From assembly GCA_958299035.1 (NCBI GenBank), contig CATQJL010000326.1:3114232-3178231 (forward strand): a DNA stretch of 64,000 bases. Reading direction: 5' to 3'. Positions 63-30,000 of the stretch are shown in pieces. The stretch is from Cylicocyclus nassatus. Lineage: Eukaryota; Nematoda; Chromadorea; Rhabditida; Strongylidae. How positions within the stretch are numbered: the stretch's first letter is position 1; every line of letters starts with the position of its first letter. The notes beneath the pieces were generated by a model. That model did no database searches, was not told the DNA's origin, and saw nothing but the letters and a program-made list of their open reading frames with translations. Both the position numbers and the translations under genes were made by a program.

Positions 63-3000
63 CTGAGATGGAAGTAGAACTAAAGCTATACAAATGAATG
101 ATACTACACAAAGCCGCGACATCCACGTATCCGGATACCTTAAGAATTGTTCCAATACTAGACTTTGATTCTGACCAACTTGCTTAGAACATTTCTTACC
201 AGTCTCCATACCCAACAGTTGAGAAAGTAACCATAACGAAGTAAAAACTGGTGAAGAGGTCAAACTGCTTTTCTCCAGCTCGTTGTAAATGCTCTATGCT
301 ACATGTACCTGCAGGAAATGAGAAAATGATCTTTTGCTGGTATGATCGCGAATTTACTCACCAGTAAATATCAAACAAAGTATTACAGAAAATAACAAAA
401 GCAGCTGTCTAAAGAGTGCTGATTGATTCATTATTGAGCTGCGGTTAAGATCATTCTAAACAATACAAGTCAATCTCTATAAAGCGAAGAAGCAAGCTCA
501 CCATCATTGCCTTTAGTGAACCCTTTGCAAGCCAACAATTAAGGAAGACTGGCACAAACAAGCGACGTAGTTTTGGTTGAAAGATCTGTGCTTGATGATT
601 ATCGTTTCATTCGAATTTTTCTTTTGAGAAAAAGAACTCACAGTGATGGCAAAAGGAAAACTCGTAATAAGTTCCAATAAGAAATGTACATTGATCAGAA
701 GACGAAAAATATTGCCCTGAATTGAATGCCTTATTTTCTGTGTAGACTTTATATTGAAGCTAAAAGTGGAAAAATTTCTTACTTGATAACTAATATAGAA
801 AATGATAATAGTTTCAAAGATACTAATGAACGCAACAATGGTCTGCGCCAGCCATAGATAATCGTTCCTATCGACCCACATAAGGTATTCACTGAAATAA
901 TATTGCAAGGATTTTACTAATTCATTAGAGGATTGTAATGGACATTTTCTCACTATTTGATTGCTCCTTCGTCTCGCTTCGCTTCCTTTACGAAATGAGG
1001 CAAGGTCCTACTATCGTTGGCTACCCGTACGCAATAGAGCACGCAGGAGAGGATTTTGATAAATACGTTAAAAAGTCGAATTCGAAAGCCTGAAAAAAAC
1101 TCAACTTATGGTTCAAAACTACAGATACATTCGATGAATACTTTTTAAAGCTATCAATATTTACTTTAGGATCGGATTTTTTCAGCATGTTGATAGAGGT
1201 CCTCATGCATTCATTCACTATATCAGTGTGGTGAGTGATGTAAGACAGTAATTTTTGCATCTCTAGGAAGTGTAGAGATAGTGCTTTGATTTTTGACTAC
1301 TCTAGAGTAGGCTTCGTTTGAACCTACCCTGTTCTCCACAAAAGTTTAGGGTTCCGAGTATTTATGCCTAATAAGCCATTTAGCACGCTCTCGTCAAAAT
1401 TTGGCCGTAAGGATCCACAAATCTTGATAAAATAACAAGTACAAGTAATTTCAGAGTATTTGATTGAGAAATGATCTGTCTTACTTGATGTCTGATTTTC
1501 AATGAAGTACTGCTGCAGTCTAGACTTAAAGCTTGTGTCCACGCCATATTGCATGCGCGCTCTGAAAATAAACATTTGCAACAGTAATTATAAAATTCAA
1601 AATAATATTGAAGGCTGCCTTGTTAGTATATTCATGTCACCTTACTTGCCTTTAGGATCTTTCCCTTGGCGTCTATTCAATAGTTTCATCGACAGTTTGA
1701 ATATATTATAGTATCTAGATTATACGAAACATCAATCAGGTTTTGACTACTTTTATTCTCATTTAAGAGTGCTATTTTTCTAAAATCTAGCAAAGAAACT
1801 TTCAATAATCGCAATTCGCATCTCTCGGTCTTGAGCATTCTGGGTATACTATTATTCATTTTTCAGCAGTACACGCTTTCTTATCCCATTTCTTGGCCAA
1901 GAGAAATGTGGAAAAAATATAGCGTGTATTCCTCTGGGATGAAGGTGTGCCTCATATAGACTGCATTTTGGTGATTGTCATAGTAAATTGTTCAGATCTC
2001 TTCAATATACGATCACTTTCGTGCATTCAATCTGGTAAATGATACAGCTGCAAAAAAAAACGAAATCAAATTTTTTGACTTCAAAAATTGTAGACTATGT
2101 TATCTACTGGGTAGAAAAAGATTGCCACAAATCTGTAGCAAATTGTCAGAGTTTCAAGCCTGTCCAGGCTTTTAATTTTCAAACCATGAAATTTTGCATA
2201 ACAAAACATTTGCACTTCAATGAATAGGCCTAAAAGAACAGAAAACTTGCACAACTTTTTTTTGGCTTATCATGAAGGGCTGCTAGGATGGAGGAGCATA
2301 AACTTATAAGTAGCAGTAATTAGTGTGAAATAAGAAAAGCGAATATGATCGGACATGCTCTCTGAGAATGGCTTCATGCCAGAGGGCTCATCGATTGTAT
2401 TCCTTCCTCATTCCCTCTTCAGCTGGTGACGAAGTACATGAGTCGTTCTTGCTTAATGAACGTATGCGGTGAAATCGCGAAACAAAAGAGAAAAATGACG
2501 ACAAAGAATATCTTATGTGGATGTAGAAATGAAAAAAAAAGATTGCGAAAGCTCTTAACCTTGCAAGAACTTCGTGAAAAGCATAAGAAGAGGTTATTTC
2601 ATTGTAAATTTAAGCTACATAAGGCTCGAACATCACTGTTGAAATAAACTAAATAAACTCCACTTTTAAAGAAGATCCCTGAGCAAAGTACTATGTACGA
2701 AGTACAGTCAGTAGGCTTTGGATTCTTCCCGATATCTCGCTAATTTCTAAGCTTATCTGAACCTAAAAAATCCTTTGGCTGGTAGTATAAAAATGGCGAG
2801 TGATCGGAAAAGTGTCTCATTTCTTGTTTTTCTTGCACTTGCAATTCTCATTTTGAGATTTTCAAATATCAGAGATGAAGACAAAACATATGATGAATTC
2901 TTAACCTTCGAACTTGTTGTTTTGTTACTGTCCGTGATATGGGGCAAGCTCTAATATATCCAAATTTTCGTTTAATCGAAGAATGTTTCTATATCATGTC

Positions 3001-6000
3001 TTCGAGGATGGGAATTATATGCCGAAAAAATCAAAGTCAGTAGGAAACGGAGTTTCACAACTATGGAAGCATATAATACTCTAGTAATTAAATTGGTAGA
3101 CAAGCAGTAGTAGTATGCATGATAAAAGTAGCACTCCTATGGAAAGAGCTTGCTCTCAAAATATCGGAGAACCGCAGCCATATGTGAGCCAAGGAAAACG
3201 ACCATTATTTTTGCATCGACCTAATAGAATGGCAAATACATGCGTGATGAAAACATGCTATTTGATACTTATTATGTTTCTTTGATGCGGTGCTATTGCT
3301 GCATTTTTCAGTTCTTCTCAAATAAAATTATCAAGCGCTATCATTCCATTTTTTTCTCATCTTAAAAAGTATTCAAAATCTATTCGTCTGCAAATGCTTC
3401 TTAGCCATACATTGCTTAGTCGTGCAACAAGGTCGGATATCTCTCTAATTTATAATAACTGCCTTGCCCTAATGCTGTGATACTCTTTTTTGTGTTTCCA
3501 TTTTTCGGCTTTTGATTTTGTAATTAAGTTCGCAATAGCGTTATACGGATGGTTTGAAGGCTCTCGTCAGTTGTGTGAGAAGAAGCTTTTTTTGTGAGAT
3601 TACTGAAGTTCCTGAGATTTTCAGTATATTTCGCGACGTTTTCTAAGTTTACTTACTGTTGAATGTCAAGAACTAAAACATCTAAATTGCTGAACAACAT
3701 CTGTGTAGGATATGAGTCGTCAATATTTTGGATGGCTGAGCTAAAGCGTAGTCATTGGAGGGTCGGTAACGTCTATCAGATTGGCACTCAAGTTTTGCAA
3801 CTTTTCCTATAAATTTTCTTCTACTAGAAAATTTCGAGCAGTTTTCGAAAATTGTTGAAAATCGAGGTTTCAATTGAGGTTTTGTGGCAAGCATAACACT
3901 TTACAAAACCTGTATCAAACGTATCAAAAAGGAATTTTAGGCACATGTAGCTAGAAGTTGATATTGGATTCAGTAAAAAAGAAGCGAAGTTTAGAGAGAA
4001 TTCAAGATAAAGCGCCTTTGAGAAGGTGAACAAGTCAAGTGTGTCAAATTCGGAAAGCAATCTTCAATAACTAAGCTGCGAAACCTCGGAATTCGCTAAA
4101 ACTATAGGGTAATCCAATATGGTGTTCACTAATATCATATCCAAATGCCGCTTAGTTGAATTTCATTTTTTGGCTTCAAGAAAAATTCCTTTCCATGCGA
4201 AACGGTTCTCATTTTTGTAATCAGCATGTTGAGTAACCCCCCCCCAGGCCAAGTTTCTGCAAAATCTGACGCAATTTAAAAATTTTCCTAATATACCATA
4301 TACCTTGTACCCTTACATAAGACAGCAATTCGGCAAAAATGTTTGCATTTGCAGTTCACATCATAAACCTTATACTGCCAGGAAATAAATGGGCAACGTT
4401 TGAGAAGACAAAAGTTATATAAAAAGATGCATACCTTTGTGCCGACTCAATTAACACTCATAAGATGAACAAGGAGAACTGGAAAGTAATAAAGATGGAG
4501 AGATAATGCAAAAGAAACTAGTAACATTAAATGGATTGAGAAATTGATGGGTACTGATTGTGGTTTTTGCTTACATTTTACACTTTGATTTTTGTGGAGA
4601 TAATGCGAATGGCAGCGTCTCGTAGCGCATAAGTCTTAGGTTCTAAAACAAATTCTTTGAGTGAAAGAATGTGTTACAGTCAATGTCCTACCTTCTTCTA
4701 GCAAAGGAATTGTCTGAAGTTTGGACTAGATTAGTAAGCACTAATCCAGTAAGGCTGTTTCAAAGTCTTTCCTTTTCTTTTCCGATCTGTTACGTAGTTC
4801 GATGTTTGCTCAAGTTGTGAGAGGCTGGGACCACGAAATCCAAAAATCAACAATGAGCTGAATTTCTGCACGCGAGGAATTGAGCCTGGTAGCGGATAAA
4901 AACTGGAGTGATCTGTTTTCGGACGAAAAATCACGAGATTGGTCCCAAGGGCAAGCAGTTACTGATGCGTTCGTACTTTTAGACACATCTCGCGACAATG
5001 CTTCATAATGTCGCTTTTCCGAAAGTGTAATTAAGCGGCTCTGTGTCCATCCGCGATCAATGGTAGGCTATCACTCGGGCTTCCTCATTAGACTCGCCCT
5101 CGGGAGCGTAAACAACTTTGAAAAATTGGGCATGGCTAAAAATCAACTTGTAGCTTCATCAGTTATCAAAAATATGAGGTGTCCATGCTAATTAAAGGCA
5201 ACGAAAATCGGCTTTTTCTTTTGGTGCACCACGAATGCATTGAATATTTGAAAAGAAATAAGAAAGTAATTGATGAAGAACTGATATCAGCAACTAAGCA
5301 AAAGCTCCTGCTGCATATCATCCTGATTTTGTTCTGACCATTATTCCCTTTATCTGGACTTTGGACTTTACATCTCTCAAGCTGTTATGCTCAAGCACAT
5401 ATGTGTCGTAACTATATACTTCCTTCGTAATTGGGGAGTACTTGCTATCTTTTCTGGACGGGATGTCGGTAGCGCAAAAGTCTCTCATATTGAAACTACT
5501 GAATTTTGAGCTAATATAAATGGTGATAGTGTGCGTTCAAAATATTCTGATTTTTCTAGAAATTTTCTACATGACAAACGTCGAAATCGTGATTTGTATA
5601 TTCAAATTTTCCTCAAATGGAATGGCCATGAATTTTCTCCTAAAATTCTATCGTGTCAAACAGTTGATTACATGTGTCTGTCGATCTACACTTGTCGTTC
5701 AAACTTCGAACACTGCAACCATTTCAATCGCTTTCGCAATTTGCTTTGGACTCGTAGTCAGTCAAAAGAATTTGAATTATCTTCCATTAATCAAGAGATA
5801 GTACAATTTTTGAAAGAAAATTGGTGTAAGATACGTAGAAGTGATCCTCTTCAATTCAGCAAGTGCTTTTACCTATTTATCCCTTTTTCAATGCACGAAG
5901 AAGCTAATATATCCTAGTTCTTAGAGGAGTAATGGAACGAACGTAATTGAGGCTTCAGCTGTTAAGTGTTGAAACTCGTCTTAGGTATGAATTTGAGGTT

Positions 6001-9000
6001 TGTACTTCACATTTAGCTTTCGCAAGAAAAATTTGAGGTTTTAAGATTGTGCATACAAGGATATCGTCAACTATTTCTTCATTCCCTTCTTCTTAGTTCT
6101 AGAGTTGTTATGCATATGTAACTAGGGACAGCGGAGGAGTGCAGTCGGACTCGAGCATCGCCGATGAGGAAGAGCGCAAAAAACTAGCCCTCACATGCCA
6201 GGATTTATGATATGCAGCGCATTTCGCGAAATCCGACACGCCAGCCGTGTGGCGTTGTCGGAACGGATTGCTAGCAAATCGAATTTATTCGCGTTATCTT
6301 GCGTGTTGTTTTTGTCCCAATTCAAGGACAGTGAGCATTTGTCAGTACCACAGAATGGGAATGATGGACTAGAAAGATGCTACGTTTTATTTGATTTTTC
6401 TCACGATGCACATAAATTAGAAAAAATAGACAAAGAATCCTTGGACGAGGTGATTGCAGAAAGAATGAATGCCTTTCAGTGTAAGACACGTAGATCGGTC
6501 CTCACAAATCAAACTAGCGTCTCGCTAGTTTTCCACTTTTATGTGCCCTGACAGATGACGAAGAAGTCCTCAAAATCTCCTAGTACTTAAGGAAATGATT
6601 GAAGTTACTTAATTAATGACGCTGTTAAATACTGCTGAGTAACCTTGAATGAGGTGGTATAGAGGATAAATGGAGGAAGTAGCAAAGCTAATTTCAAAAA
6701 AAATTTTTTTTTTGAGAGTGCTTACAAGTTTGTTAGCTGGGGCAGAGCTTAGTTGAGACAGAATTGTAGTCCAAAAGTATAACAATCGTGATTCATAGTA
6801 GTAACAATAGTAATAGTAATAGTACTACTATAATTATAATAGTACTTGCCTTCTTTGCTAGAAAACAGTAGGTCCTTTCCAAGAAAAAACAAGGAATGTA
6901 AAGTTTTTGAGTGTCAATAAATAATAAAAGTTGTTAATTTTTTGCGAACATGGAGTAAATGAAGAAAGTAATACCATGTTTTACAAAACTGAAACCTGCT
7001 TCTTGCATCTTGCTATTGAAAAGTCTTGGTAGTCTTTTGAACAGCCAAAGATTATTTTTTAGAAATTGAAATTGGATGTATATCAGAATGATTACTGTCT
7101 AGAACAATCTATGCAATGAAGCGCTTTCTACCAAAGCCGTCAAGCGTGAAGCTTTTTATGAGGAATGTACTGAATGCGGAAGAGCTGCATGTAATAGTTC
7201 CACCAAAAGTGCAGTTTGACGGAAAATGAAGTTTATGCCTGCAAATGTTTTCGTTTAAAAAAAAACTCTTTGTATTATGTGGTGTGCGCTTGGTTTCCTT
7301 AAGCTTGTTTTCTTATTTTGGATAGATGTGTGAGATTATTGCGTTCTCGTTCTGCGAACTCGAATCAGTTTCAACTTTCTAGATTTTAACGTTCAATACT
7401 GTGTCCGCTGATGATTTCCTGCATCTCTAATCGACAAAGTTTTTTCCAAAAAGAGAATCAAATGCTGGAACAGAATGGCATTCATATTTCATCATCTGTT
7501 CACGAATCGATGTGAGAACTGTTCGGTCAAGTTAAAAGGGGAATGTGAGCGAAAAACATAGTGGGAAACAGTGTTTTTATGTTTTTCCAACATGGATTGG
7601 TTCAAAAGTTTATACAATTTTCTTTGCAGCTCAAAACGATATAGAATAGTCTATGAGGGAAGAAGTTTTTGTAGGAGTGTGTAGCTTTCTATCATCATTT
7701 TGCGCTGTTTACTTCCACTTCAAAATGCAGTTCTGCAGAATCTACATGCTATAAAATATTTCCCATGGAAAAGCAGACGTTTGAAGTCGATAAAATAAAT
7801 AAAATAATTTGGCATAAGAGAATAGAAACGAACACAGAATCTCGCTCACGAAAGCGGCCATTGGTTGAATTCCAACGCACCATCCGCCAGAAGGTACTCA
7901 TTATGCTGCAGGAGGTGGCCAGAAATCGGCAAAAAGCTCGAAAAACTTGATAAATGCGTTTTCCAGAAAGGCTTCTCGATGCATAACGTGTAATTATGGC
8001 TGGAGAGTTGATTAATCGGGTCAGTCGGTTTTTGAGGAATAAGGAACATATACTTCAGTGATGAAGTAAAAAAAAGGCAGCATCGTATGCACAAATGCTC
8101 TCAAGAATGAGGAAGGAAGAAAAGTTTTTTGATTCTTTTCGGGTTCTGTGAAATTTGAGAAGGCTTTGAAAACACTTTAGAATGTGAGGCATTTCTCTTT
8201 GAATGCATGTAAGTGACTGCTACAGCATTAAGAAGCGTAAGTCTGACTTCGCAAATGTTTTCTTTAGAATGTTGAACCTTGAAGAATTATCTTGCGATCA
8301 TGTTCACATCAGTTCTCTTCCTAAGAGGATCAAATATGCTCAGAAAAGTGAACTGAACAATAGAATAAATATAGAAAATGCGGTTGTAGTGACCAAGAAA
8401 ATGAGTGGATTTTAGTTGAACAGATTTTGATTATCAGAATGAACAATGAATGAGTTTTTTTTTGAATTGCGGGGTTAGTAATAGTCAATGAAATTTTTGA
8501 AAAAGCAAATTCGGGGAAACAGAATAGATGTCAAAAACTATGATGACGATGATGACTAAGCAAAAGCAGCGGAGAGCGAGCCATCATTACGTCGATGATT
8601 GGCACAAGATCTGTCGGCAACAACGAAGGGACTTTTTTGTTCATTTTTTACTTATTTGTCCCTCTAATAGATGCAGGGTATGCCCAAAAACGGGGAGAAA
8701 GGAAAAGAACAAGGGTAACACGGTGAACTCAGTAGTCCTATTCAAAGGTCATTTACGATGGTGATAATCATGATAACTAGACAGCTTTAGTGGCTAAAGG
8801 TAGAAGCGTTGATCAGCGGAAAATATATAATTGTAGTACAAAATATATCTTATAATGACTGGGAAGAAATGAACGAATCTTGTCAACGGAAACGGCTTAA
8901 TACACATGTGGTCTCATCAATGACCTGAGCTTAGAATAGTGTCACAAGGGTCTTTTTTCGCGGAAAATGTGGACCATTGAGAATGAATAGAGATAAAGAT

Positions 9001-12000
9001 TTTGTGGAATGTACAGACGACCATCTGGAACTTCAGCCATATAGGGTGCTTTGCATAGAATAGTACTTACAAGGGAAGCTACCTAACTCAGCTCGGCCTT
9101 TTGGCAAGACACATATAAATTAACTACTACTGAACATGGGAAGACTGCCTGTAGGTAAAAATCTGCAGGAAAAGGTACTGAGATAACGAAATAACACAAG
9201 TTCAATCTTTTCTTTTTTAAAAGGAGCTTAACGCAAGTGTAATAGCGCTTAGATGATAACGCCCGTAACAGTGAGTCGACGAGTATGCCAATTTCGCGCA
9301 GGAAAAAGTCCATAACTCGCTTCGAAAAGGTGCGCGACAGCTAGCAATAACATTTGGAATCAGCATTTGGAGCTGATTCAGAATATATATATCCCTTGCC
9401 AAAGGTTGAACTAAGTTAGGTAGCTTTCCTTATTAGATATAAGTTTGATACGCAAAACTAACACCACAACTACATCGGTATTTTTCAGGAGCGAAGGACG
9501 ATTTCGTGATCGGAAAATTAGTGATGGAGTTGATGTTAGTGGAATACGCTATTCTGTAGTACTCAACACACTTACGCATCTTTTGGCAGTTCAACACTTC
9601 TCAGGAAGATTCGTGATCGCCACTTCTTGCCATCCATGAGTCGCCACGACTGCAACGTGGGCCGGGCAAAGACAAGGTGAGCACTGTGCGTGCATCTCGA
9701 GGAAAAACTTGTTGCTATAGATCAATCCGCAATTGTTGTAAAGTGTGTTCAAAGGCCATCAGAGGAATAGGTTCTTTGACCGGTTCATTTTTTCGTTTTT
9801 GAAATTAGGCCAGGAATTTCTGATGGAGCATGTTAAGTGCTGCGTGGTAGATGGAACTACCCAAGATAAGGAAAAAGATAATGCGCGATTGTAAATGGAT
9901 GCAAGAATTATCCAACTTGACTTAGGGGACCTTTGACATTTTTGGGTACTATACAAACTAGCATTAATGCGATCCAACGTGCTCAATGTTTCAACGATTT
10001 TTCTCTTTTAAGAAAAACCCTACATAACAATGAAGCAGCTGTTTCATCCCCCACTTTTCGAGAACATGAAAAATACACAAATTCGCTCGTCACGAATCAT
10101 TAGTCTGTACTATAAGCTCTAGTAGCTTCTATGTCACGTTTGTTTTAGAAGAAACCCGGTGCAAGCAACTCAAAGCTGTCCCGTGAAAAGTAAACTTGAG
10201 ACTGGCACAAATTCAAACAGCAGCGCATTGTGTCAAATAGTCATTGACATTTTGAAGGTACAAAAAATTGGGTAGCCATAGTGCAGGACTGGAAATTCTG
10301 TGAAAACTGTATAGGAAATTTGAACTCTAACTTCCTACAGTTGTCAATTGATGCTAACAATAAGCTGCAACCTTGAAGTAAACTCAAGAGTTTATGTGAT
10401 ATGAAGAAATTCAAAATTGTAATAATAAAATGAAAAAATTCACAATTAATGTTACTTTCAAATGATCAATTGCTTGCGCAAACTATCATCATTTAACAGC
10501 TCTAACAACAACAATCTTTAGCATTTAAGAACTGAAGTAGAGAAGCTCACAAAATTCCCATGATTCATACTTTATTCTGCGCAGAATCTAATTATCGACA
10601 ATTTAGGACTTCCTCAACTTTGAATTTTCACACTTTTCTAGCACACATACGTACGAATAGACTCAATTTTCAAAACTGTTTTATTGAAGTCTCTAGTTTA
10701 CGCTGAACATCAAAATATGGTTTTGAAGCCTAGAGCTTGTTCCACTTTTACGCAGATGGAACAGATGAAACATTAAGCATGCATTGGGGAGAATCAAGAT
10801 TGAAAAACAATAGAGAGCGTGACTTACGCAGGAGTTGGTCGAAATAAATTCGAGACGGATTTTTTCATGCTTTGCAAGGTCATTCCACTACAACTGGAAC
10901 GGCGACTTGCATCAATTGGCTTCAGATCTCTGATTACTGCCTCGTAGCTTGGGCTTTTCTTGAGCAGAGTTCTGTCCTGTTTTTCTGCATCCTCGCTTTC
11001 CGACATCTCTGGCTGGCTTCCAGCTCCAAATATGAAGTTAGTCTGGCTTGCAGAATAGAGAAGCGAATAAGCTGATTGAGTAGGCAGTTTGTGTTTGTAA
11101 TCAATCAAGGCTGACTGCCGCCTTGGGCTTGGAGAGCAGTATCTGGGAAAGTTATGGGATCCGACGCCGCCCTACAAATGTGGAGCAAATTAGCAGACTA
11201 AATGGACGTCGGCGCATCGACTCAGACACACGGAAATGTTATTTGTGCACAATAAGCGGATAGACTAGAAAAGTAAGTTTCAGAGGGAAATAGTTGTCCT
11301 AGGCCGGCATCGATCGGCATCATTGCTCTCCAACAGCTTTGGAGCAAAGATGGACTCAAACTATGCGTCAAGGATTGATGTGACGAAACTCCTCCCTTCC
11401 TGGATATGGGATTGGACGAGTGTTGTTGAGGAGTCCCAAATGAACGAGCGGATAATGGTGCGATGCAAAAACTGCATCGTTCCAGATGTCCGGCCTCATG
11501 GTATCACATTGGCTTTTTTCGTTAGATGGTAAATTGCTGAATATCGGACAAATGTAAGAAAACATCTTTCTGGAAAAGAAAAGGCGCTGAGGGGCAAGTG
11601 AGACTCAAAGCGGATGGTGAATTCTAATAGACTAGTGGTGTGTCTTCAAATAGCGTCAGAATGTTAAATAATGTAGATTATTGTATAAATAAGTTTTCCT
11701 AAATCCTTTTGGTTAAAACTCCACTTTTTTGGTTCGAGAACATTATTAGCAACGTTTGCCAATTGTTCCTCGAATTATGACCATGCCTGCGTTCTTTCCT
11801 TGCAAAAAGTTTTGTTCTTTCTTTTTTTTACTCCTTTTCCTTTCCACGTTAGTCATCTTCCAAAAAGATCTCTTCTGTATGGATGTCTATATGTTCCTCA
11901 ACTCATTCTAGCTCCTTAGATTTGTCTTAACGTTGAAATTACTAACATCCTTGCAATCATGGAAATCACATGCAATTAAGTAATATACTTTCAGCATACT

Positions 12001-13881
12001 TTCATGACTATATAAATATCTACATGCACAAGAGTCGAGAGCTATAGTTACGTTTCAGTCAAAATCACGAGGATTTTTTTATTTGTTTGCCCGCTTGTTT
12101 TCGCTAGCTTAGCGTTATGTATCAGGCTGGTGCAAAAGTTTTGTCAGTTTTTTTTGAATCCAACTAAACTAATTAAGCTGTATCCGACGCAGAATTTCTT
12201 AATCTTTCCAGCTGCTAAGGCTTCAGTAATTCGTTGAGAGAGTGCTGAGATAATCACTAGAAATTCAGCCCGTCGTTTTCACCAGGTCTAACTTTCTCTG
12301 ATTTCAAGATTTTCATCTGAGACTTTCGGGGGAGCTTCCATAACCAACAAAATTGCAAAAACAATAACATAACCATAAGATTGCAAAATTCCACAACCAG
12401 CAGGTAGAGGGAGTACTTTTCCAACTGAAGCGATTTTTCTTTCTTTCTTAAGCTACTCTTTTGAATTTTTGCTGAAAAATTTTCTAAAAGCCTGCGTTTC
12501 AAAAAAACCTGTAATCGCACCAAACACTGCAAAATCCTTAGAATACTGAGGTTTCAACACTCGATTATGCTTGACTCACCTTACAAAGTAGAGGAGCGAT
12601 TTTTGCTGCGAAATATGGAAGTTTTGGAACTTAGGGCACATCAGCGCAAACTCGTGAAATTGAGAATTACGTCGATAATCTCCGCAATTTTCGCATGTTT
12701 TGCCAAGAAAAGGCAACCGCTAGAAAAAGGACAAAAAGTTGCATTGAATAGTACCTGAATTGTTCACGCTTTTACGTTCTGCGGGGTTACAATAGGCCAA
12801 AAATTTGGTTACTACAGAATACATATTTTAGAAATTTTGAAAGACAAGCCACAGAGCTACAAAAATTGCTCCGGTTGGCAAAAGATTTGCGGTACTATCT
12901 GCTGGCTATAGCTGCTCCAAAAATCACAGATAAGAATCTTGAAAATTGGCGAGAGTCAGACATGGTGAAAACGAAGGGATATAGTGTTCAGCAATTATCT
13001 TAGCACTCTCAATGATTACACTAGGAGTATAGCATCTGGAAATAGGAATCTGCGTCGGATACAGCAAGTGTTTGTTGATCTTTACTGTACGGGATTTCGG
13101 TCAGTTCAAAAACTGACAGAACTTTTGAACCGTTTCAATATGTTAGCAGCGTACTCTGCTCTTACTTATGATTCTGAGAAATGAGTATATTTTTTGGCGG
13201 AAGTGAGGCTACAGAATCATAACTCAGTCAGCATTAACGCATCATGAGTTTAGCTGGATATTGTTGAGCAATTTGGTCTGCGATCTCTGTATAGAGGCTA
13301 AGATAAGCTCATTAATAGTGGGTACGCTATAGGGAGGATTGTAATAGCTTGCAAGGCTAGTCGAGACAATAACATTTACGCTCAAAAGGAATTCTGATGT
13401 GCATCAGACTTACACCGATCTCTCCGCTAGACTGCAGCAAAACTATGTTTTAAGTGAACCTGAGATTTTATAGTACTGAATTTTAATAGCGCCTATCATG
13501 CAGTTTACTGGAAATGAGAAAAAAAATGACGAAATACTTACGATGCCTGTAAAAAGTACTTGTGTGTCGCCTGTGCGATCATCCTGTTCCGAAAAGAATA
13601 TCGGCTCTCCATTCTAAAACTGAAGGGTCTTTCCATAGTGAATAGAAAGAATGGAGTAACAATGCCCGAAGGCACAAGATAACACATATGTGATAAATTA
13701 TATTGACACAGAACTGGCATCAACAAGAATTGGGGGTTCACTAGGGAGATCTCTGAAGCACGCGTACGAGTTTGGTGTCGTATAGCTTTTTTGCAGTATA
13801 AACGAACTAAACAAACTAATGAGTCTTCTTCAGCTGTTGGCATGGCAGCAGTTGAAGAAGAAGAAGTCAAGTTTGCGGGAA
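63..13881 (-). CDS. slo-2: SLO-2/Slack-type potassium channel, N-terminal half (partial)
   Basis: Large-conductance potassium channel subunit of the Slo2/KCNT family, a plasma-membrane channel gated by voltage and intracellular ions. Exons in transcript order: 13817-13881 (provisional), 13542-13613, 10828-11171, 1485-1561, 1012-1089, 783-952, 642-716, 502-585, 362-455, 200-308, 63-138. All splice phases agree. S1 is [17 protein letters not shown]2 is [19 protein letters not shown]3 is [17 protein letters not shown]. The next exon carries the Slo2 signature [12 protein letters not shown]5 is [17 protein letters not shown]. Exon 200-308 holds the pore helix and filter TVGYGDW, and exon 63-138 holds S6. 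The RCK gating domains lie beyond the left edge. Exons 10828-11171 and 13542-13613 encode a Ser/Pro-rich cytosolic N-terminus. They join in phase to the conserved part, but that link is inference. The true start codon is unknown; ATG at the codon MPTAEEDSL in the first exon is possible. Confidence 0.92.
2793..2954 (+). CDS. Small two-helix membrane protein candidate (53 aa)
   Basis: I do not recognise this protein. A complete 53-codon frame runs from ATG at 2793 to TAA at 2952-2954. It begins [19 protein letters not shown]. It has a basic N-terminus, a first hydrophobic helix (residues about 8-23), a charged linker (RDEDKTYDE) and a second hydrophobic helix ([14 protein letters not shown]). 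A TATAAAA string sits just before the ATG, at about 2785-2791. It lies inside the large slo-2 intron on the opposite strand, so it would be a nested gene. It is short enough to be chance, and it could equally be one exon of a longer product. Confidence 0.3.
   Translation: MASDRKSVSFLVFLALAILILRFSNIRDEDKTYDEFLTFELVVLLLSVIWGKL
6126..6480 (+). other. Possible exon pair or broken gene fragment
   Basis: Two coding-like segments lie close together on the plus strand. From 6126 one frame reads [20 protein letters not shown] and ends at a TGA at about 6210. A second frame (6195-6551) then carries the basic stretch [19 protein letters not shown] and an acidic stretch [20 protein letters not shown], followed by a GTAAGA donor at 6481. 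The break between the two frames could be an unrecognised intron or a frameshift in a decayed gene. No family was recognised. It lies within the slo-2 intron on the opposite strand. Confidence 0.22.
9489..9676 (+). other. Candidate exon pair on the plus strand
   Basis: Two short segments join in phase across a 70-base intron. The first is 9489-9534, after a TATTTTTCAG acceptor. The second is 9605-9676, after CTTCTCAG and ending before GTGAGC. The joined product begins [20 protein letters not shown] and continues through [19 protein letters not shown]. The amino acid mix and the phase agreement argue for coding, but no flanking exons were found and no family was recognised. A competing frame ([15 protein letters not shown]) runs through the first segment and the intron. 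Confidence 0.3.
12123..13130. mobile_element. Degenerate fold-back element in a slo-2 intron
   Basis: The left end reads GGTGCAAAAGTTTTGTCAGT from about 12126. The complement of the right end, near 13127, reads GGTTCAAAAGTTCTGTCAGT. Internal blocks also pair: the complement of about 12250-12330 matches 12890-13010 with scattered changes and gaps. Both arms encode similar peptide debris (for example VRPGEND versus DMVKTKG), so it is a long inverted repeat rather than a gene. The ends resemble mariner-type termini, but no clean TA duplication is visible. It occupies much of the intron between slo-2 exons 11171 and 13542. Confidence 0.7.
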
Positions 13882-15644: not shown

Positions 15645-16182
15645 GAATATTCGTATTTGAATATTTATTCGAAATATTCAACTATTCGAATGTTGGATTA
15701 GTCGAATATACGAGAAAGTCCTTTTCAATTATTCGAACTGAATAAATGGAAAAGGCCTGCATTCGCATAATTCATTATTCGACTACTTGGAAACTGGCTT
15801 ATTTGATTATTCAAATATTCAAGGAATTTCAAAAGCTTCTCGAATATTCGAAGATTCGAATATTCGAGAAGCTTCAGCAAACAATTGTTCGAATATTCGA
15901 ATATTCGAATATTCGTATATGCATTCGAATACGAATATTGCATTTGAATCATTCGGATACTCCTTTACTCGAATAGTCGAATATTCGATCAAGTTCGGTT
16001 ATTCGAATTTTCGAACGTTCGAATTTTCGAATGTGCCCGTATTCGAACATTCGCATTCGAATAATATGAAAGTCGGAAATCGAATAACATTCGTTCATTC
16101 GAAAATTTTACCAAACTTTCGATATTCATTCATTCGGAAATTTTCTAAAATTCAGTTATTCGGTATTCGTTCATTCGATAGG
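15645..16182. repeat. TTCGAA-core short-period satellite
   Basis: About 540 bases built of degenerate copies of an ATTCGAAT or TATTCGAA unit, with the palindromic core TTCGAA occurring dozens of times. Because the unit is self-complementary, both strands have open frames rich in Phe, Glu, Tyr, Ser, Asn, Ile and Arg (repeats such as RIFEYSN). These frames are artefacts of the repeat. Copies drift progressively at the right end to TTCATTCG and TTCGTTCATTCG. Confidence 0.95.
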
Positions 16183-17844
16183 AATTTCCGTTTGTTACAA
16201 CTATAGTAGAGCTTGCTATAGAATAGGAGGAAGTATGAGTTTCTACAGTTCTGATAGAAGTACTGGGAAAATCTTACAATCTTACACAATTACGGTACCA
16301 GAATAACAGATTGGTGTATGGAGAAGCCGTAGCACCGTTGGCGAGTCTTCATCGCTAATGGACTTTTGTTTAGACCCTTCTGTGCTCCAAGCTTTATAGA
16401 AGCTTTACATAATGAGGGCGTAAGAACTTATCTCATCATATGGCAATACGCTAACGGCTGTGTAGTTCTGCTCTAAAACCGTCTTGGACAACATTGTATC
16501 AGAATCTGAATTTTTTTCTATACTTTGGTGGGACATCTTTTGAATTTGATAAGGAATTGTTGTAGCATCAGAAGTCTATGAATTTTCAAGAAGTTTAGCA
16601 GCTATGTGTATTTGGTTTTGCCGCGTTTTCATCTTCACATGCCTGTTTTTTTTCAAAATAATAACAAAATTTGATCACAATTGGTTGGAGCACCTGTTGC
16701 TAAACTGTGTTATCTTTGCCTCTGCTTTTCACCCTTTGAAATTACTTCGAGTGCTGCTAAAATAAGGCCAATAAGGCCCTGTCGCATGCACATCGCAATC
16801 CATAGATGTTATAAGCAACAATCTCTCACTTCATTATGATGCGTGGTGACATTGGAGACACTACTTTAAACGTAGTAGAAATTTGAAATAACTTCCATGG
16901 TGTACTTTTTTCGCATTGCAGTGCGAGGGCAAGTGAGTGAAGCTGTGGCATAGCGACGATCTGTAGCGAAGACTACAAACAGACTACCGGCAAGAGAAGG
17001 GTTAGTCTTGCTTGCTAGAGGGAGCCGAAGGTGCCAGGTTCAAGATGTAAGCGATTTGTGGTGCCTTGTATGAGAAAGATACCAAGGTGATCTGATAAAC
17101 CGAAAAGAGAGATGATATTACTAGAACATCTCTGAATGCTGATTCCAAATCTGTCCTTCTTTTCTGCGGAACAGCTCTTCGAGAGAAGTTATGAGCGTAA
17201 GTCAATATTTGTCAAGTGTTAAGTGGCATAAAATTAGCGAAAAGTTCTACGAAAACACCTGAAAGTGGGAAATCCATCTTGTATCAAGTGTATTGATTAC
17301 AAGGAAGGAACACAACCAGTAGAAATCCACGTAGGTGTTTTTGTACAGCTTTTCGCTAATTCTATGCTACTTGAGGCTTGACAAATCTGGACCTTCAAAC
17401 GCTCGCAACTTCTTTCGGAGAGTTGTTCCACAAAAAAGGAAGCAGGTTTTGGATCAGCGTTTAGAAATGCGTCTAGTGATATACATTTCTTTTCAATTTG
17501 CCGAAACAAGTTGATATCCCCTTGTTAAAGCATTGAAATCTGAGCTCGCAAACAATACATAGAACAAACTAATGAGCAGGTTTCGATCATTAGTGGGTGG
17601 GCTTTGACACTGTGCGAGGGGAAAATAGTTGGAGTTCCATGATCAGGAACAGTTTGTGCTTGGATGATGAAGAATGATTTTGAATCTTTCAATTAAGATG
17701 CTCTCTTCAAATTGTAGCTGTTCACTTCGCCTGCACTAAGGCTCATTTTATTGGCTAACTTGGTTAATTTGAACACTGTTTAGACAAATTCTAGAACCTA
17801 AATTTTATATGGGAGCTTTTTGGTAGGAAGCAATACACAGAATT
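16183..17844. other. Flank of the retrotransposon, two weak minus-strand frames
   Basis: Two minus-strand stretches read like possible exons. The frame at 17297-17509 includes CISLDAFLNADPKPASFFVE and QLSERSCERLK. The frame at 17002-17205 includes RAVPQKRRTDLESAFRDVLV. They could be 5' exons of the slo-2-like gene or of another gene, but no splice chain links them. The rest shows nothing. Confidence 0.3.
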
Positions 17845-17861: not shown

Positions 17862-19737
17862 AATCGAGAAACGTGGTGGTGGAATGATGAAGTGCAAAAA
17901 CTCATAAAGGAGAAGAGGGATGCGTAAAAGCGATGGCATAAAACGAAATCAGAGGACGATCGCCAGACGTACCAACAAGCCAAACGTGCTGCGAAGGCTT
18001 CCGTAAAGAAGGCAAAACAGGTGTACTTAAAGGAGCTCTACGATCAACTAGAGTCCCGCGAGGGAGAACGCGAAATATACCGGATAGCGAGAAGAAGAGC
18101 GGAGTCCACAAAAGATATGGAGCACTTCCTCCATATCAAAGACAAACTTGGTAGGAGTCTAAGAAATCTAAGAAAACCAGAAGACATTACCGAAAGATGG
18201 AGAACCTACTTCGAAGAGATGGCCAACATAGGCCGCACCATCAACTCCATCCCAAAAGTCAGCCCCATAGAGGGACCAGTACCAGAGGTCAAGGAAGAGG
18301 AAGTATGGCTGGCTGTAAGAAGAACAAGGAATGGCAAAGCGACTGGTCCAGACGACATACCAAGCGAGTTCTGGAAATTATGTGGACAATCAGGAGCCAC
18401 ATGGCTAACAAGTCTCCTCAATCAAATCATAAGGAGCAAGAGTATGCCTCGCGACTGGTACACCAGCACGACCATCCCGATATGGAAAAACAAAGGAGAC
18501 ATAGCAGACTGCGCATCCTACCGACCAATCTGATGAGCCATACTCTAAAAATCTTCGAGCGAGTAATCGAAACACGCCTTCGAGATATCATCGAGTTGTC
18601 ACCAAATCAGTGCGGATTCGTGAAAGGAATAGGTACAACTGATGCAATCCACTCCGCTCGGATAGTGATGGAGAAATACAGAGAGAAGCAGAAGAAATTG
18701 CATGCAGCCTTCCTGGACCTGGAGAAAGCCTTCGATAAGGTGCCCATGAAGTCATATGGTGGGCCTTGCGGAAACACAGGGTGCCAGAGGATTACGTTCA
18801 GTGGATAAAGTTGATCTACCAGAACGCGTAAAGCCATGTGCAAACAGCTGCAGAGCAATCAAAGGATTTCAAAATCAAGGTTGAAGTACACCAAGGTTCA
18901 GTTCTCTCTCCCTTGCTCTTCATCACTGTGATGAACGCCATGATGGAACCGCTTAGACGTGAACCCCCTTGGACACTTCTCTACGCAGATGATGTGGTCT
19001 TGATAGCAAGTACCAGAAAGGAGCTACAAGACGAGGTGCAAAACTGGAAAAACAGGCTAGAGTTGTATGGCCTGAAGCTCAACACCAGGAAGACAGAATA
19101 CATGGAAGTGGGGCAACAAACTCCAGGTACCATAAACATCGATGGTGAAGAGCTAAAGAAGACAACGTCATACAAGTACCTAGGCAGTCGCATCTCAGCG
19201 GAGGGAGGCTTACAAGATGAGGTCGCAGGCAGGATGAACACAGCATGGATGAAATGGAGAGCCTTAACAGGAGTTCTGTGCGACAAACGAATGCCAGTGC
19301 AACTTAAGTCCCAGCTGTAGGACCGTTATCCGCCCAGCAGCACTGTATGGCAGTGAGTGCTGGCCGTGTACGCGGAACGAGGAGCGCAAGCTCAGTGTCA
19401 TGGAAACAAGGATGCTACGATGGACCTTAGGAGTCACATTGAAGGATCACATCTGCAATGACAGTATACGAGCGCGAATGAAAGTAGCTCCAATTACCCA
19501 GAAAATGCAGGAAAAGAGGTTACGATGGTATGGGCATGTGAGCAGAAGGGATGAAAGTCACATCACCAAGTTGGCCCTGGCTGTGGAGGCACCAGGCAAA
19601 AGGCCCAGAGGTAGACCCAAGATGAGGTGGATGGACAGAATCAAGGCCGACCTGCGAGAGCTTGGTATAGATGAAGACCTTGCCTCAGATAGGACGACAT
19701 GGAGAGCTTAAGCGGGACACATGCGAGGATAAAAAAA
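17862..19737 (+). mobile_element. 5'-truncated RTE-like non-LTR retrotransposon
   Basis: An insertion of 1,876 bases flanked by a 17-base target-site duplication, ending in a short A-rich tail (AAAAAAAA at 19731-19738). The endonuclease domain that should come first is missing, so the copy was 5'-truncated on insertion. It keeps the linker, reverse transcriptase and C-terminal region. The base composition is visibly more GC-rich than the surrounding DNA. The clade (RTE or relative) is inferred from the RT blocks and the C-terminal WYGHV motif; a Jockey/CR1-type assignment is less likely. Confidence 0.93.
17871..19711 (+). pseudogene. Broken reverse transcriptase ORF
   Basis: Reverse transcriptase of the non-LTR element, disabled by several lesions. 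Recognisable blocks in order are the linker WWWNDEVQKLIKEKRDA, GKATGPDDIPSEFWK near 18336, the SYRPI block near 18520, FLDLEKAFDKVP near 18712-18747, HQGSVLSPLLF near 18889, the catalytic YADD at 18982-18993, and YKYLGSRIS near 19171. A C-terminal GHVSRRDESHITKLAL block follows near 19536. Damage: TAA at 17925, a frameshift near 18530 giving TGA, a frameshift near 18745, TAA at 18829, and a one-base loss near 19317 giving TAG. It cannot make an active enzyme. Confidence 0.95.
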
Positions 19738-21965: not shown

Positions 21966-22067
21966 ATTAGATTCACTCTGACAATTTTACACGTCAAAAG
22001 TTCTCTTGAAAAATTCTTTTAATACATTGCATTTTGTCTACTCTGTCTATCTGTTGTCGAAGTATTA

Positions 22068-23001
22068 GGTTGTCAAGAAAAAAATGTCGTTTTTCATTTG
22101 CTTGCTTTAACAAAGCAACCAGACTCAACCCAACGAAGGGTAATGGGTATTGTTCGATAGAGCAAAGCAAGCTCTACAAGATGGCGTTCACGATCTTGCG
22201 CCAAGCTTGATCCACGGAATGTTCGAACTCAAAATCTGAAGATATCCAAATGCCTAAAAAATCGAAAAAAATCAGATCTTCGTCCAAATAATTTCTACGG
22301 ACCTCCCACTCGCATACGTCAATACTTTCGATATAGTATATCCATATGTGCAGTTGCTGTATCTTTTCCTTGACTACAAACTGAGCAAACAAAAATTTTT
22401 GTGTTTTTCTAAAAGCAATGCTGAGCCGTTCTTGCATATGTGATTCTATACTACAAGTTTAGGTAAGTACAACTATAGATTTTCAGCCTATTTCGAGCGA
22501 TAGTTTTCGAGAAATGTTGCTTTTAGCACTGAAACTGAAAAGAAGAAAGCTGGTTTCGATATTTCTCGAAAACTACTGCTCGGCCTGAAAATATACAGTT
22601 ATACTTATCTAAACTTGTAGTATAGAATCACATATGCAAGAACGGCTCAGCATTGCTTTTAGAAAAACACGAAAATTTTTGTTTTCTTAGTTTGTAGTCA
22701 AGGAAAAAATGCAGCAACGCACATATGGATATCATATATCAAAAGTATTGACGTGTGCGAGTGGGAGGTCCGTAGAAATTATTTGGACGAAGATCTGATT
22801 TTTTTCGATTTTTGGGCATTTGGATATCTTCAGATTTTGAGTTCGTACATTCCGTGGATCGAGCTTGGCGCAAGATCATGAACGCCTTCTTGTAGAGCTT
22901 GCTTTGCCCTATCGAACAATACCCATTACCCTTTGTTGGGTTGAGTCTGGTTGCTTTGTTAAAGCAAGCAAATAAAAAACGACATTATTTTGTTGACAAC
23001 C
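22068..23001. mobile_element. 934-bp near-perfect palindromic element, mariner-like ends
   Basis: The whole element is an inverted repeat with a small centre near 22535. The ends are GGTTGTCAA and TTGACAACC, flanked by TA on both sides (22066-22067 and 23002-23003), the target duplication typical of Tc1/mariner elements. Arms match over about 450 bases with few differences: the block ATTGTTCGATAGAGCAAAGC on the left is found inverted on the right. The frame at 22174-22437 is only the arm itself and not a gene. It is nested inside the 21512-23240 element. Confidence 0.93.
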
Positions 23002-23240
23002 TAATATTTCCAAAAGTCAGAACAAAAATTTGAACAGATAGCAAACTCAGGGGAGGTAAAAACCGTGGGTTGAAGATTCTGACAATTTTCAAAGTGAAAA
23101 TTATAGGAATCCGAACAGAAACATTATGGCTGGCAAGAGGAAGAAATTCTGCATAGGACCCTTCTTAGAATGTTTGTTTATCTTTGTTCTGGATGATTTG
23201 AGGATAGTATAAAAAACAGCACGAACTTTCGGACCCACCT

Positions 23241-24098: not shown

Positions 24099-27000
24099 TG
24101 GCGGCTCGAAGAGCTCGTAGTCAGAATCGTGATACGGCCAAGGATATCATTCTTGGACTTGCGTAAGTGAAGGTTTTGAGCTTTTCTATCATTACGTTCA
24201 ACAAATGAAGCGTGGTTTCCCGTAAAGAGGGAAAGCATCTATTTCGATTTTAGTTTTTTATGGATTTGATCTGTAAAGTTATGATTTGAGTAATCACTTT
24301 TCCTCTGTGAGTTGATGATAAGACTATATTTTCTAATTGTCGGAAAAGTGGATCTGATTCAGTTTTGTAGTATTCGAAGCTGGGTAAGGGTAGAGTTTTA
24401 AAAAAACATAACGACTCCTCGTTTACAAATCAAATCCCGAATACGGTTGGCTGCATTTGCATACACTTTTCGATTCTATGGTTTTCTGTCTAATGCGAAG
24501 CAAAGAACTTAAATGGTCACTGTGCCCTTCAAAATTCAGAGTCGTTGTGGATTTCTCTAGCATACACATATATGTTTCAGCCCTTCCGGACAGGGCCCCA
24601 GGCAACCAAAAGAAGGTGTGGCATATGCTCCAAAGGTATGTCATCTGATAGTACCATGAAGTACTTCATTCTAACAAGATGCTGTCAATAGATAGCCTTC
24701 AAGTGGGATAGCTGGCATTCATATCAACTTACTGCATATACTAGAATCTAATTTTTGGTCTTTGTGGTCTTGCTTCATAGTGACTTTCGCGGTCAAAAAT
24801 GTGAGCATTAATTCTAAAACACTATTATTTGAAATCACTATTGTCGTGGCTTGTCTTTGTATTAGTGGTTCAAGTCCACAATGGTCTTGGTATTCAACAG
24901 CTCAGTATTAGTTTTACCGATTGGATTAGTCAGTTGTGCGGTTTGATCAGAACAGCCGTATTTTCAACCCTGCCTCCTCTCGCTTTTATAACTCAAATAC
25001 TGGGCCGATAATGCATGTACATGTCAGTTTCTTCATCGCCCATCATAAATCGTATCCGTAATTGTCCTGCCACATTCCCTGTTATTTGACGTTCTAGAAT
25101 CGTGAAGCTTCCTGCAGCACAAGAATCCTTGTTTTTGTGCGTTTGAGAAAATAGATAACAAACTAAAAAACACTTTTTCATTCAAATGAGTATGTGAATG
25201 TTATCAAAACACAATTACGATCTGTTCGATAGAGAATGGTTACCGTAAAATTTCACGCTGTGATTTTTTACTTCATTTTCGGATCATCTCGACTGGGTAG
25301 CAAAGAAAATCAATTTTCTTTTTTTTAAGTGGCAAGCAGCACTATTTAATCCAAAAAGCAAATCATGCATTCAGAATTCCAGTTTGAATGAGTTAGAGTG
25401 AGCGGAATGTTCATTTATCAGCTCTGAACTAAACCTTGAGTAAATTTGCAGAAATGCCCATGTTATAATTTACTAATAAGCAAAAATCAAATCGTTGTGG
25501 AAACATCAATGTTAAGGGCCAACCTATATACTACTATGATAAGAGATCTCGCAGCGCTAATAATTCAGCAAAGGTATGATTTATCTTGTGCACGTTTTGC
25601 TGTGATTTATCCAGTATGTCAATCCCAACTTGCCTGCATCCCTGCGCACAAACTTCAAATATTTTCCCTTCACTAAACATTTTCGAGGAAAATATGTAAA
25701 TCTGTTAGACAGAGGAACCAAAAGTGGAACGTGTCGAACGGGTGATTGTCGACCGACGCCCGGACAGTTCGGCGATACGACAGCTACAGAATCAGCTGGA
25801 AGAGGTGAAGCGTCAGAATAGAACTTTGCTGGAGAATGAGCAGGTTGGTGACGTGTGATTAGCCTGGAATGCATTCTCAGTCCAACTCTATCCTGGCTTA
25901 TCCCTGAATTTCATATTTTTGAACTTTACTTAATTGTTAAAAGAATTTAGGCAGCTAGGAAGCGACTAGAAGCGAATCAAGATGCGCTACAAAGGAGGAT
26001 GTTTGATGCAGACAACGGAATGAGGTGAGTCAGTAGTGTTGCCAAGTTCAGAAACTGGATGACATTACTATTATGTTGGATAATGGATAAGTTCGGTCGC
26101 TTTTGCGGCTCTTACTAATGCTGCAGACAATTTTTTTTGTCCTGAGTATGGTATCTCTGGAAAGAGCACTTTAATGAGAATTGAAGTTTAATTTTTGTTT
26201 GAATAGAATCTTCCGAGGAAGAAAAATCTGCAAAGAAATGAGAAACTTCAATTTTCTCATGATGCGCAAATGTGAAGAAATTTGATTTTTTGATCAAAGA
26301 TTTTCAAAATGGCAAATCACAGTTTTCATTGTTATTCACTGAATAGGGAAAATTCCTTTGTATAGATACTACTGCTGTTCTCTATATCTATACGGCATGA
26401 ACACGAAGCTTAAGAAGTCAAAAAATTGTGCTTTTGGAAATTTAGCCATGTTGAGGCATGACTGTCTTTATTGATGATAGCAACTGAAAATCTTATATGT
26501 GATAGAGGAAGCTTCAGACTACTTGGACTGTACAGAACTTGGCTGCGGGTGTAGATTCTACAGTACTTTCTGCCCTGCTTTCAGACAAGATCCACAAGAT
26601 TACGTCAAATAACATAGGATCATTTGTTCCCGACTAAGTTTTGCATGTAACAAAGTGAGCTTTTCTAGAGGAAAGCGTTTTTTTCTAGGATAAAAATACA
26701 GGGTGTCCCAAAAGCAAGTACACACTTTTCAATCGTCAATATCTCTCTTCCCAATGGGTCTTTTCTTGCCATTTAAGTACCATTCTGTAAAGGAGGCTTC
26801 AACTTTCCACAGTATCGAGCGAATCACCGAGCGCTTTTCATTACTGTAGGATTACGGTAAGAACTTCCAGCATGTGAAACCATTGTGAAATATGCCATCT
26901 AACAAAATTTTTTTCAAAAAATCTGAAAAATAGTCTACTAGAATTCTCGCGCACGCTGATTCCACTACACAACTTTTTATGAGTGTTTTCAGCTTTTTTG

Positions 27001-30000
27001 ACGATGTAATCACGTTTCTGACAAATACTGGGAATGCGGTTATTACGGTTACTTGGGATAACTTCGGAAAAAAGCATCACAGCTAAGTGGAACTTTCATA
27101 TTCGGAATCAGCGGCTTCCATTACCATAGTATGAGAGTTTTTGGCTTGTTTGGTTCTGTCCAAAGCAGAATATGGCTTCCATTGGCCTAAAATCCTTGTC
27201 AAAGTTCCTACAATAATCCTACAGTAACGAAGAGCGACAAATCGATTCGCTCGATAGTGCAAATCTATGTTGGAGCCTCCTCTACAGAATGGTAAAGTGG
27301 CGGAAAAAGACACAGTGGGAAGAGAGGTATTAATTATTAAAAAGTGTGTACTTACTTTTGGGACACCCTGTATATACGTTTGACCCATAAAGTCAGAGTT
27401 GTGGTTTCTGCTAAATCACTTTGCCTGCGCTATTTGGCACTGGTCACGAGCATTGTATTTATCTCGTATAAAATCACCATCTTCTGGGATTACGGTGGGT
27501 TTACGATAGGTGGGTCAAACCAGCAGGCTGAGGAACCGCTTGAGCAGAAGTTTAAGTAAACTGGAAATTTTGTTTTACCGTTCCTATCCACTGGAAATTT
27601 TGTTTTACCGTTCCTATCCACCCTAGTCATATGATCTTTCATCTTTTTAGAGCGCGAGACTACGACGAACTACGTCGTCAGATTTCGTCGGTGGATGGCA
27701 AGGTGGCCAGTAGTTTTCGCGGATTTTTTTGATCATCACATTTCCAGATGATGTCCTTGAACAACGACATCAACGGGTTGAGGAGTGCTATGGACCGACA
27801 GATGAGCGATCTTCTACATATAAACAATGAAATGAAAAGCAGACCCGTGGTAGATCCTTCTGTAAGTAATTTGTATAGATCGCAATCCCGATGCAATTAC
27901 GTATTTTCAAAGGGATTACATAACCATTGTTTTGATGTGAACTAAGAAGTTCATAGAGCCCGTGTGTCAAGCAATTTACGGTAGTCATACCTGTTTGTGT
28001 AAACTGGTTGGCAGAACTCAACTGAGTCACTGTGCAAGCAGCAACTCATCAGTCCGATACCGTATTCAAAGACGGTCATTGGTGCGCTTGAAATGAGTAC
28101 GGTAACTATTGCAACACAATATTTGAGTTTCTCAACCTGATATGAACTTTATGAGATGTCGCTTGATCAGTGGCTTAGTTAAAACCTCCCAATCAGTCCC
28201 AGGCAAGAGAATTTAAGTATCCGAATTTGTCTGGACACCGCGTACAAGTTCATTTGACTAACAGTTCAGAAAATTGCGAGTTCTGCCCAACAAATGGACG
28301 GAAAAGTACGAGATCTACACTCTCAAGTGATGTTGTTGAAGCAAACTCTGGATACCGAAAGGCATGAACGTGTCAAGGAAGGAAATGCCTTGAACAGCAC
28401 GTAGGCATCGATTTTTCTTGTATCGATTTTTCTTAGTCCACCTCATTCATTTCTCGTGAGCGGTCGTATTCGTTTCATACTCTGCTTGTTTTAATCTTTG
28501 TTCCTTTTGTAGATTCAGTTAAACACAGAAGTTCTTTATTGCAGTCTTCAAAGATTACAAGACTATATAAAGCAGCAAGATGCCTCAAGAGCTGAGGTTC
28601 TAAACAACATAACTCGCAAGGGTGATCTGGATAAGGTAAGCCTATTTCGGGGTAGTATACGCCCAAATGAAATTGCTACTCTCTAGGAGAAGCTAACAGA
28701 AGAGGCAAGACGTCTGAATGAGAAAATTGGCCTCATCACTGCAGAAGTGACGAGAAATACTTCAGAAAGTCAGAGAAAGTTACGTGATGATCTCTTCCAA
28801 AAGTGTGCGGCGTTAGAAGCGGTAGGTTTTTCTCACGTTTTTTTTGTCAAAATTACGGTGAATTGGCTAAAAGAGAATAGCTGAGGCTGTGTACAGATTC
28901 GCTCGGTACGCGTCGTGCTAGCACCGTGCCAGCGCCGTGTGAGCGTCCCGTATTGATCGGACACGGCGCTAGCACGGACAACTTTGAACGCAGCGTGAAG
29001 TACTTCAGACAATGACAACAACAGTTATGAATTTAAATTTGAGGTGGAATTGTTGCTTGATTTAAATCCTATCCGCACCGCTTCTAATTCGGATCGCGAT
29101 CCGTTCGGGATAGGCCGTAAGAGACCGCGTTAATTCTTTTGCGTCCGCTTTTCGTGCGGGAGGCGCTTGCCTGAATTATCTGCTATCGAACAAATAGTGC
29201 AGAGCTCAATTTCACGGTTTATACCATACGGACTGTTACAACAAAAACAGTCACCGAAACCCTCAGTGATACACACTCGCCTGCAATTAAAATTTTGGCT
29301 GTAGCACGAAATTCAAGGAAATGTCTTTTGAACTGTTTTGTCGAAGTTATTGACTATTAAGCACATCTGGGTTGCTTCTTGCCTAGACTTTGTGGCCTGC
29401 CACTTACCCCTTGGCGCGCACCAACTGCATGCCATTTGTGGTTAGATCAGGTTTTGAGTATAGGTACAGACTGCTCCCGATACTGCCATATAAAAGTGCT
29501 TCGTTCCCTATTAAAGTTGTATTGTATTCTGTGGCACGGTGTTGACTTTATTCATAAAGGTTTGGACTGGATTCACCTGAAAATACCCTTTAAATACTTG
29601 AAATCTAAGTAAGCTAGAGTTGTTGATGATTTTGGTTGCAAAATGTTTTCACATTTTGAACTGAAGCGGCTGTTTTCTCATTCTCTACGCCATTCCACTC
29701 TTCTATGCATGAGGTTTCCATTTTGTGAAGAAAGTTTTTCGTCTTTACATTTGAAATACTCAATGGAACGAGTTCGTCAATTGATTTGGCTTTTCAAGTT
29801 TTATGCGCGTTGGTCGCGTTTGAATGAATGGTTCAACCTTTTGGAATAATAGAAACGCCATCATTCTCAAGTAAAGTAAAATGCAGAGAGTTTGACAAAA
29901 CAGAGGAAGGGCATTGAACAATTATTCACTGTAATGCACAGTTCAAGGATGGGCATGACTTTACTGGACTCTGATGCCAGTGGCATCCCAGGATTTCCGT

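Follow-up and report, generated by a model that had tools for sequence, protein, structure and literature searches.

The window, by which we mean the whole 64,000-nucleotide stretch of DNA analysed here, almost certainly carries on its minus strand the 5′ part of a slo-2 orthologue from a clade V (strongylid-like) nematode, encoding the cytoplasmic N-terminus and the S1-S6 region of a Slo2 (KCNT-type) channel subunit. The gene is a routine orthologue in a known family, similar genes are already in the databases for many worms, and knowledge of Slo2 channels is unchanged by it. What is gained is an exon map that was confirmed and trimmed, together with a likely true N-terminus for this K+ channel of a strongylid-like worm, and the corrected slo-2 map is of use for annotation and for choosing the right cDNA to clone.

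Exon map and reading frame of the gene front

The front of the gene consists of nine minus-strand exons of 75-344 bases each, eight within positions 63-1561 and the ninth at 10828-11171. These had been proposed in an earlier note as exons that join phase-perfectly, and joining them by script bore this out: all nine were present, AG preceded and GT followed every one, and the joined sequence formed a single open frame 368 codons long, with many stops in the other two frames. Not one of the nine exons is by itself free of stops in all three frames, so an uninterrupted reading across eight junctions goes beyond chance. The introns within 63-1561 measure 46-395 bases and the first intron 9,266 bases. 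The coding features, in the order of translation, are as follows.

10828..11171, minus strand: N-terminal exon (AG/GT; donor phase fits 1485-1561; match to P0151)
10828-11006, minus strand: coding part of the N-terminal exon, running from MSESED... to ...NLFRPTP and ending two bases into the following codon
1485..1561, minus strand: exon with the ARMQYG... segment before S1 (frame, N-terminal comparison, alignment to relatives)
954..1089, minus strand: exon with the S1 region and S1-S2 loop (frame, KCNT1 match, alignment to relatives)
783..891, minus strand: exon with the S2 region (frame, KCNT1 match, alignment to relatives)
642..716, minus strand: exon with the S3 region (frame, KCNT1 match, alignment to relatives)
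502..585, minus strand: exon with the S4 region and VFLNCWLAK (frame, KCNT1 match, alignment to relatives)
362..455, minus strand: exon with S4-S5 and the S5 region (frame, KCNT1 match, alignment to relatives)
200..308, minus strand: exon with the turret, pore helix and selectivity filter TVGYGD (frame, KCNT1 match, alignment to relatives)
63..138, minus strand: exon with the S6 region up to LLPSQ (frame, KCNT1 match, alignment to relatives)

The segments S1-S6 of the window protein were assigned through the alignment to KCNT1, with the segment limits themselves presumed. The eight downstream exons encode 253 residues and include both motifs that had been singled out earlier, the VFLNCWLAK block within exon 502-585 and the TVGYGDW pore, which is split over exons 200-308 and 63-138. 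LLPSQ ends the part of the protein held in the window, and the gene runs on past the window edge; the Ancylostoma ceylanicum protein P0035 extends about 750 residues beyond this point, and the C-terminal tandem RCK domains typical of Slo2 channels (PF22614, PF03493), which carry the ligand sites, would be encoded past base 1 of the window. The suggestion that simple ORF calls miss the gene was nearly right, the exception being a 146-aa minus-strand ORF at 513-953, reported among ORFs of at least 120 residues, which runs through the S2 and S3 exons plus their introns.

Channel family and relatives

The 253-residue part was compared with proteins of known structure in the PDB, where 243 distinct chains matched to E 10; the ranking of families rests on the best 60 of these 243. 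KCNT1/Slo2.2 ranked first, with PDB 8hir matching residues 7-253 (S1-S6) at E 2e-76 and 260 bits and PDB 5u70 matching the same residues at 256 bits, and the next family among the best 60 was KCNQ2, at 29 bits over residues 184-247. The S1-S6 core is thus nearer to KCNT1 than to other K+ channels (260 versus 29 bits), and no competing K+ channel family appeared in the best 60 of the 243 chains, which upholds the Slo2-type identity first proposed for the gene. We give virtually no credence to the alternatives of slo-1 (BK type) and of a different K+ channel family. The pore and S6 do resemble many K+ channels (KCNQ2 1e-5, K2P 4e-5, Slo1 0.0015, Shaker 0.0017), but within the best 60 the chains of these other families align over about 40-75 residues near S5-S6 at about 20-29 bits, whereas KCNT1 spans S1-S6. 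KCNMA1 was not the best match over S1-S6: the first Slo1 entry in the best 60, 6nd0, had E 0.0015 and 22 bits over 42 residues (209-250) of the pore and S6, and elsewhere in the protein Slo1/BK (KCNMA1) gave no match in those 60 chains.

Relative to vertebrate KCNT1/Slo2.2 (Slack; 8hir, 5u70), the window protein is homologous throughout S1-S6, the KCNT1 models being 50-52% identical to it, but its S1-S2 loop is shorter and its filter reads TVGYGDW where KCNT1 has TVGYGDV. The K+ selectivity signature TVGYG is therefore present in the window protein, and among the 246 relatives compared the TVGYGDW form was found in 28 and another TVGYGD/TVGFGD form in 210, with the pattern unmatched in eight. 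Pfam placed Ion_trans_2 above its cut-off in the channel part (9.5e-14), while Ion_trans fell just under (22 versus 25 bits) and was counted against the assignment. A Pfam Lig_chan match in the channel part lay below the cut-off and was taken as chance; NCBIfam matches were all far below cut-off, and Rfam at gathering scores gave no match anywhere in the window.

A search with the window's 368 residues, in which only proteins of 0.55-1.75 times that length could be returned, gave 33 matches, with nematode Slo2-like proteins first, followed by vertebrate KCNT1/KCNT2 and others; the gene passed the homology check proposed in the earlier note. No record named C. elegans SLO-2 was among the matches listed in the protein searches. 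Longer proteins were sought from two relatives, Anisakis P0018 (best 120 of 385 matches) and A. ceylanicum P0035 (best 120 of 3133, with 7990 candidates scored), and these searches included Loa loa P0037, named CBR-SLO-2, which is 70% identical over 127 shared residues. Closest among the 246 proteins compared were those of the hookworms, A. duodenale P0147 and A. ceylanicum P0035, at 90% identity over 251 residues without a gap, and the lungworm protein Parelaphostrongylus tenuis P0148 also aligned gap-free over 251 residues, at 86%. These models come from different genomes and different annotators, and the gap-free alignments therefore support the seven inner junctions. Gaps do occur in the alignments of certain further strongylid models (59 gap columns for P0143, 25 for P0056); given the agreement of P0147, P0035 and P0148, we attribute these gaps to errors in the models that show them. 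The nearest relatives point to a probable origin of the window in a clade V nematode close to the strongylids. Farther relatives are alike in S1-S6 and the K+ pore, with ARMQ opening the common part, at 73% identity for Auanema P0151 and 58-71% for Caenorhabditis P0153-P0156.

That the exons represent a decayed copy of slo-2, a pseudogene, is highly improbable: there is neither a stop nor a frameshift, both splice sites are kept in nine of nine exons, and the models to which the exons align gap-free at 86-90% identity are 1003-1118 residues long. By analogy with the family, four such subunits would make up a K+ pore, which would open when a gating ring of C-terminal RCK domains, encoded outside the window, binds an intracellular ion such as Na+, Cl- or Ca2+ and pulls on S6. 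PMC3228735 describes SLO-2 of C. elegans as Ca2+-activated and its mammalian orthologue as Na+-activated.

The N-terminal exon and alternative first exons

When the 115 residues of the ninth exon were compared with the 246 proteins by BLASTP, only P0151 from Auanema sp. JU1783 matched significantly, at its N-terminus, with 44% identity over 54 columns and E 2e-9; the remaining four rows to E 10 had E 1.0 or worse and lay deep inside proteins. In the opposite direction, 30 nematode Slo2 N-termini compared with the entire window by tblastn hit the ninth exon at E 2.4e-11 (P0151, 44%, 54 columns) and, apart from it, nothing below 0.19. The 30 N-termini were drawn from 39 proteins hand-picked among the 246, nine of which were dropped with the common-block pattern unmatched, including P0006 and P0039, which have N-termini of their own; models starting at MQ (P0035, P0147, P0149) were outside the 39. 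The matched part, exon residues 60-113, begins near MSESED and reaches almost to the ARMQYG junction, and in a shuffle test against P0151 the score was 116 compared with a shuffled mean of 22, none of 500 shuffles scoring as high. On the strength of this match and the shuffle test we take the exon as genuine up to ATG 11006-11004, which is the likely start codon. Exon residues 1-55, which precede this ATG, had no significant relative by BLASTP among the 246 proteins or among the 30 N-termini (best p 0.018 of 30), and the frame upstream of the exon is shut by a TAG that forms part of the splice acceptor; positions 11007-11171 are probably 5′UTR following a splice or trans-splice site. Weaker likenesses to the N-terminal exon were set aside as not significant with 30 tests, namely C. 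briggsae P0154 (shuffle p 0.01) and P0002, P0044 and P0156 (p 0.03-0.042), and a Pfam Peptidase_C98 match in the exon (E 0.067, below cut-off) was taken as chance.

The ninth exon might instead be foreign to slo-2, either part of a different gene or an intergenic frame that is open by chance. Its distance from the rest of the gene is 9,266 bases, a significant match was found in only one of the 246 proteins compared, and all 13 strongylid models are without it, though seven of these also lack the neighbouring exon. Yet the single match is to a Slo2 family protein, falls directly before ARMQYG with a matching phase, and has E 2.4e-11 against the whole window, and we regard a foreign origin as very improbable. 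We favour its place in slo-2, and infer that this far-upstream exon encodes one isoform of the cytoplasmic N-terminus.

Many of the nematode Slo2 proteins compared vary ahead of ARMQYG and are alike beyond it, converging at exon 1485-1561, and Steinernema carpocapsae P0008 and P0009, which share the gene name L596_014211, have differing N-termini within one gene. Such variety is to be expected from the at least eight SLO-2 isoforms that arise through alternative splicing in C. elegans, as given in PMC5736756. None of the 13 strongylid-named models compared has the ninth-exon sequence at its N-terminus, a result that is weaker than it looks because only six of them reach the neighbouring ARMQYG exon: seven stop short of it (P0033, P0042, P0048, P0056, P0057, P0092, P0143), three begin at its MQYG (P0035, P0147, P0148), and just three have an N-terminus of their own ahead of ARMQYG (P0040 and P0150 from Nippostrongylus, P0152 from Haemonchus).

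One further candidate lies upstream of the ninth exon.

13542..13881, minus strand: possible alternative first exon (phase and splice sites only; first ATG 13843-13841)

The earlier note had drawn the outer limit of the gene at 13881, a position that has no homology behind it and corresponds to the AG site before this possible extra exon. The donor is GTAAGT in phase 2, which fits exon 1485-1561 and not the open frame of 10828-11171. Compared from its first ATG with the 30 N-termini, the candidate reached a best p of 0.004, not significant with 30 tests, and a search of the window for alternative first exons resembling those N-termini recovered only 10828-11171. We put forward only tentatively, as the less probable case, that two or more first coding exons serve as alternatives, with 10828-11006 and 13542-13843 both spliced to 1485-1561, giving isoforms with different cytoplasmic N-termini that the strongylid models miss.

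Other features of the window

No further channel exons were accepted in the window after tblastn of 33 proteins; the best similarity outside the gene had E 0.004, at 50171-50437 on the minus strand, where many channel proteins aligned, mostly at 28% identity or less and with gaps and stop codons. It was taken as chance because it was gone with the default word size and low-complexity filter.

Two coding-like regions lie on the plus strand. The first, 18021-19320, holds ORFs that resemble fragments of a non-LTR reverse transcriptase. Pfam gave RVT_1 for ORF 18838-19320 (E 1.1e-17) and nothing for ORF 18021-18533; ORF 18197-18808 also lies within the region, and we read the whole as a decayed retroelement. 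At 56267-56869 there is an exon of a rhodopsin-type G-protein coupled receptor (Pfam 7tm_1, E 2.5e-19), whose best PDB match is the gastrin/cholecystokinin type B receptor (1.6e-9). The receptor gene may reach 57747, the membership of ORF 57265-57747, which is without a Pfam match, being a guess.

Repeats were also found. Positions 22054-23015 hold nested inverted repeats with arms of 217, 95 and 134 bases that are 92-96% complementary, so that the interval is a single palindrome over nearly its full length and may be a foldback or MITE-like element, and a second inverted-repeat pair, with 79-base arms at 85%, lies at 26696-27373. A degenerate TTCGAATA-type tandem repeat occupies 15840-16053 inside the 139-aa ORF 15787-16206, which is probably spurious for that reason. 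A shorter tandem repeat at 27560-27621 has a 30-base unit in 2.1 copies that are 100% alike.
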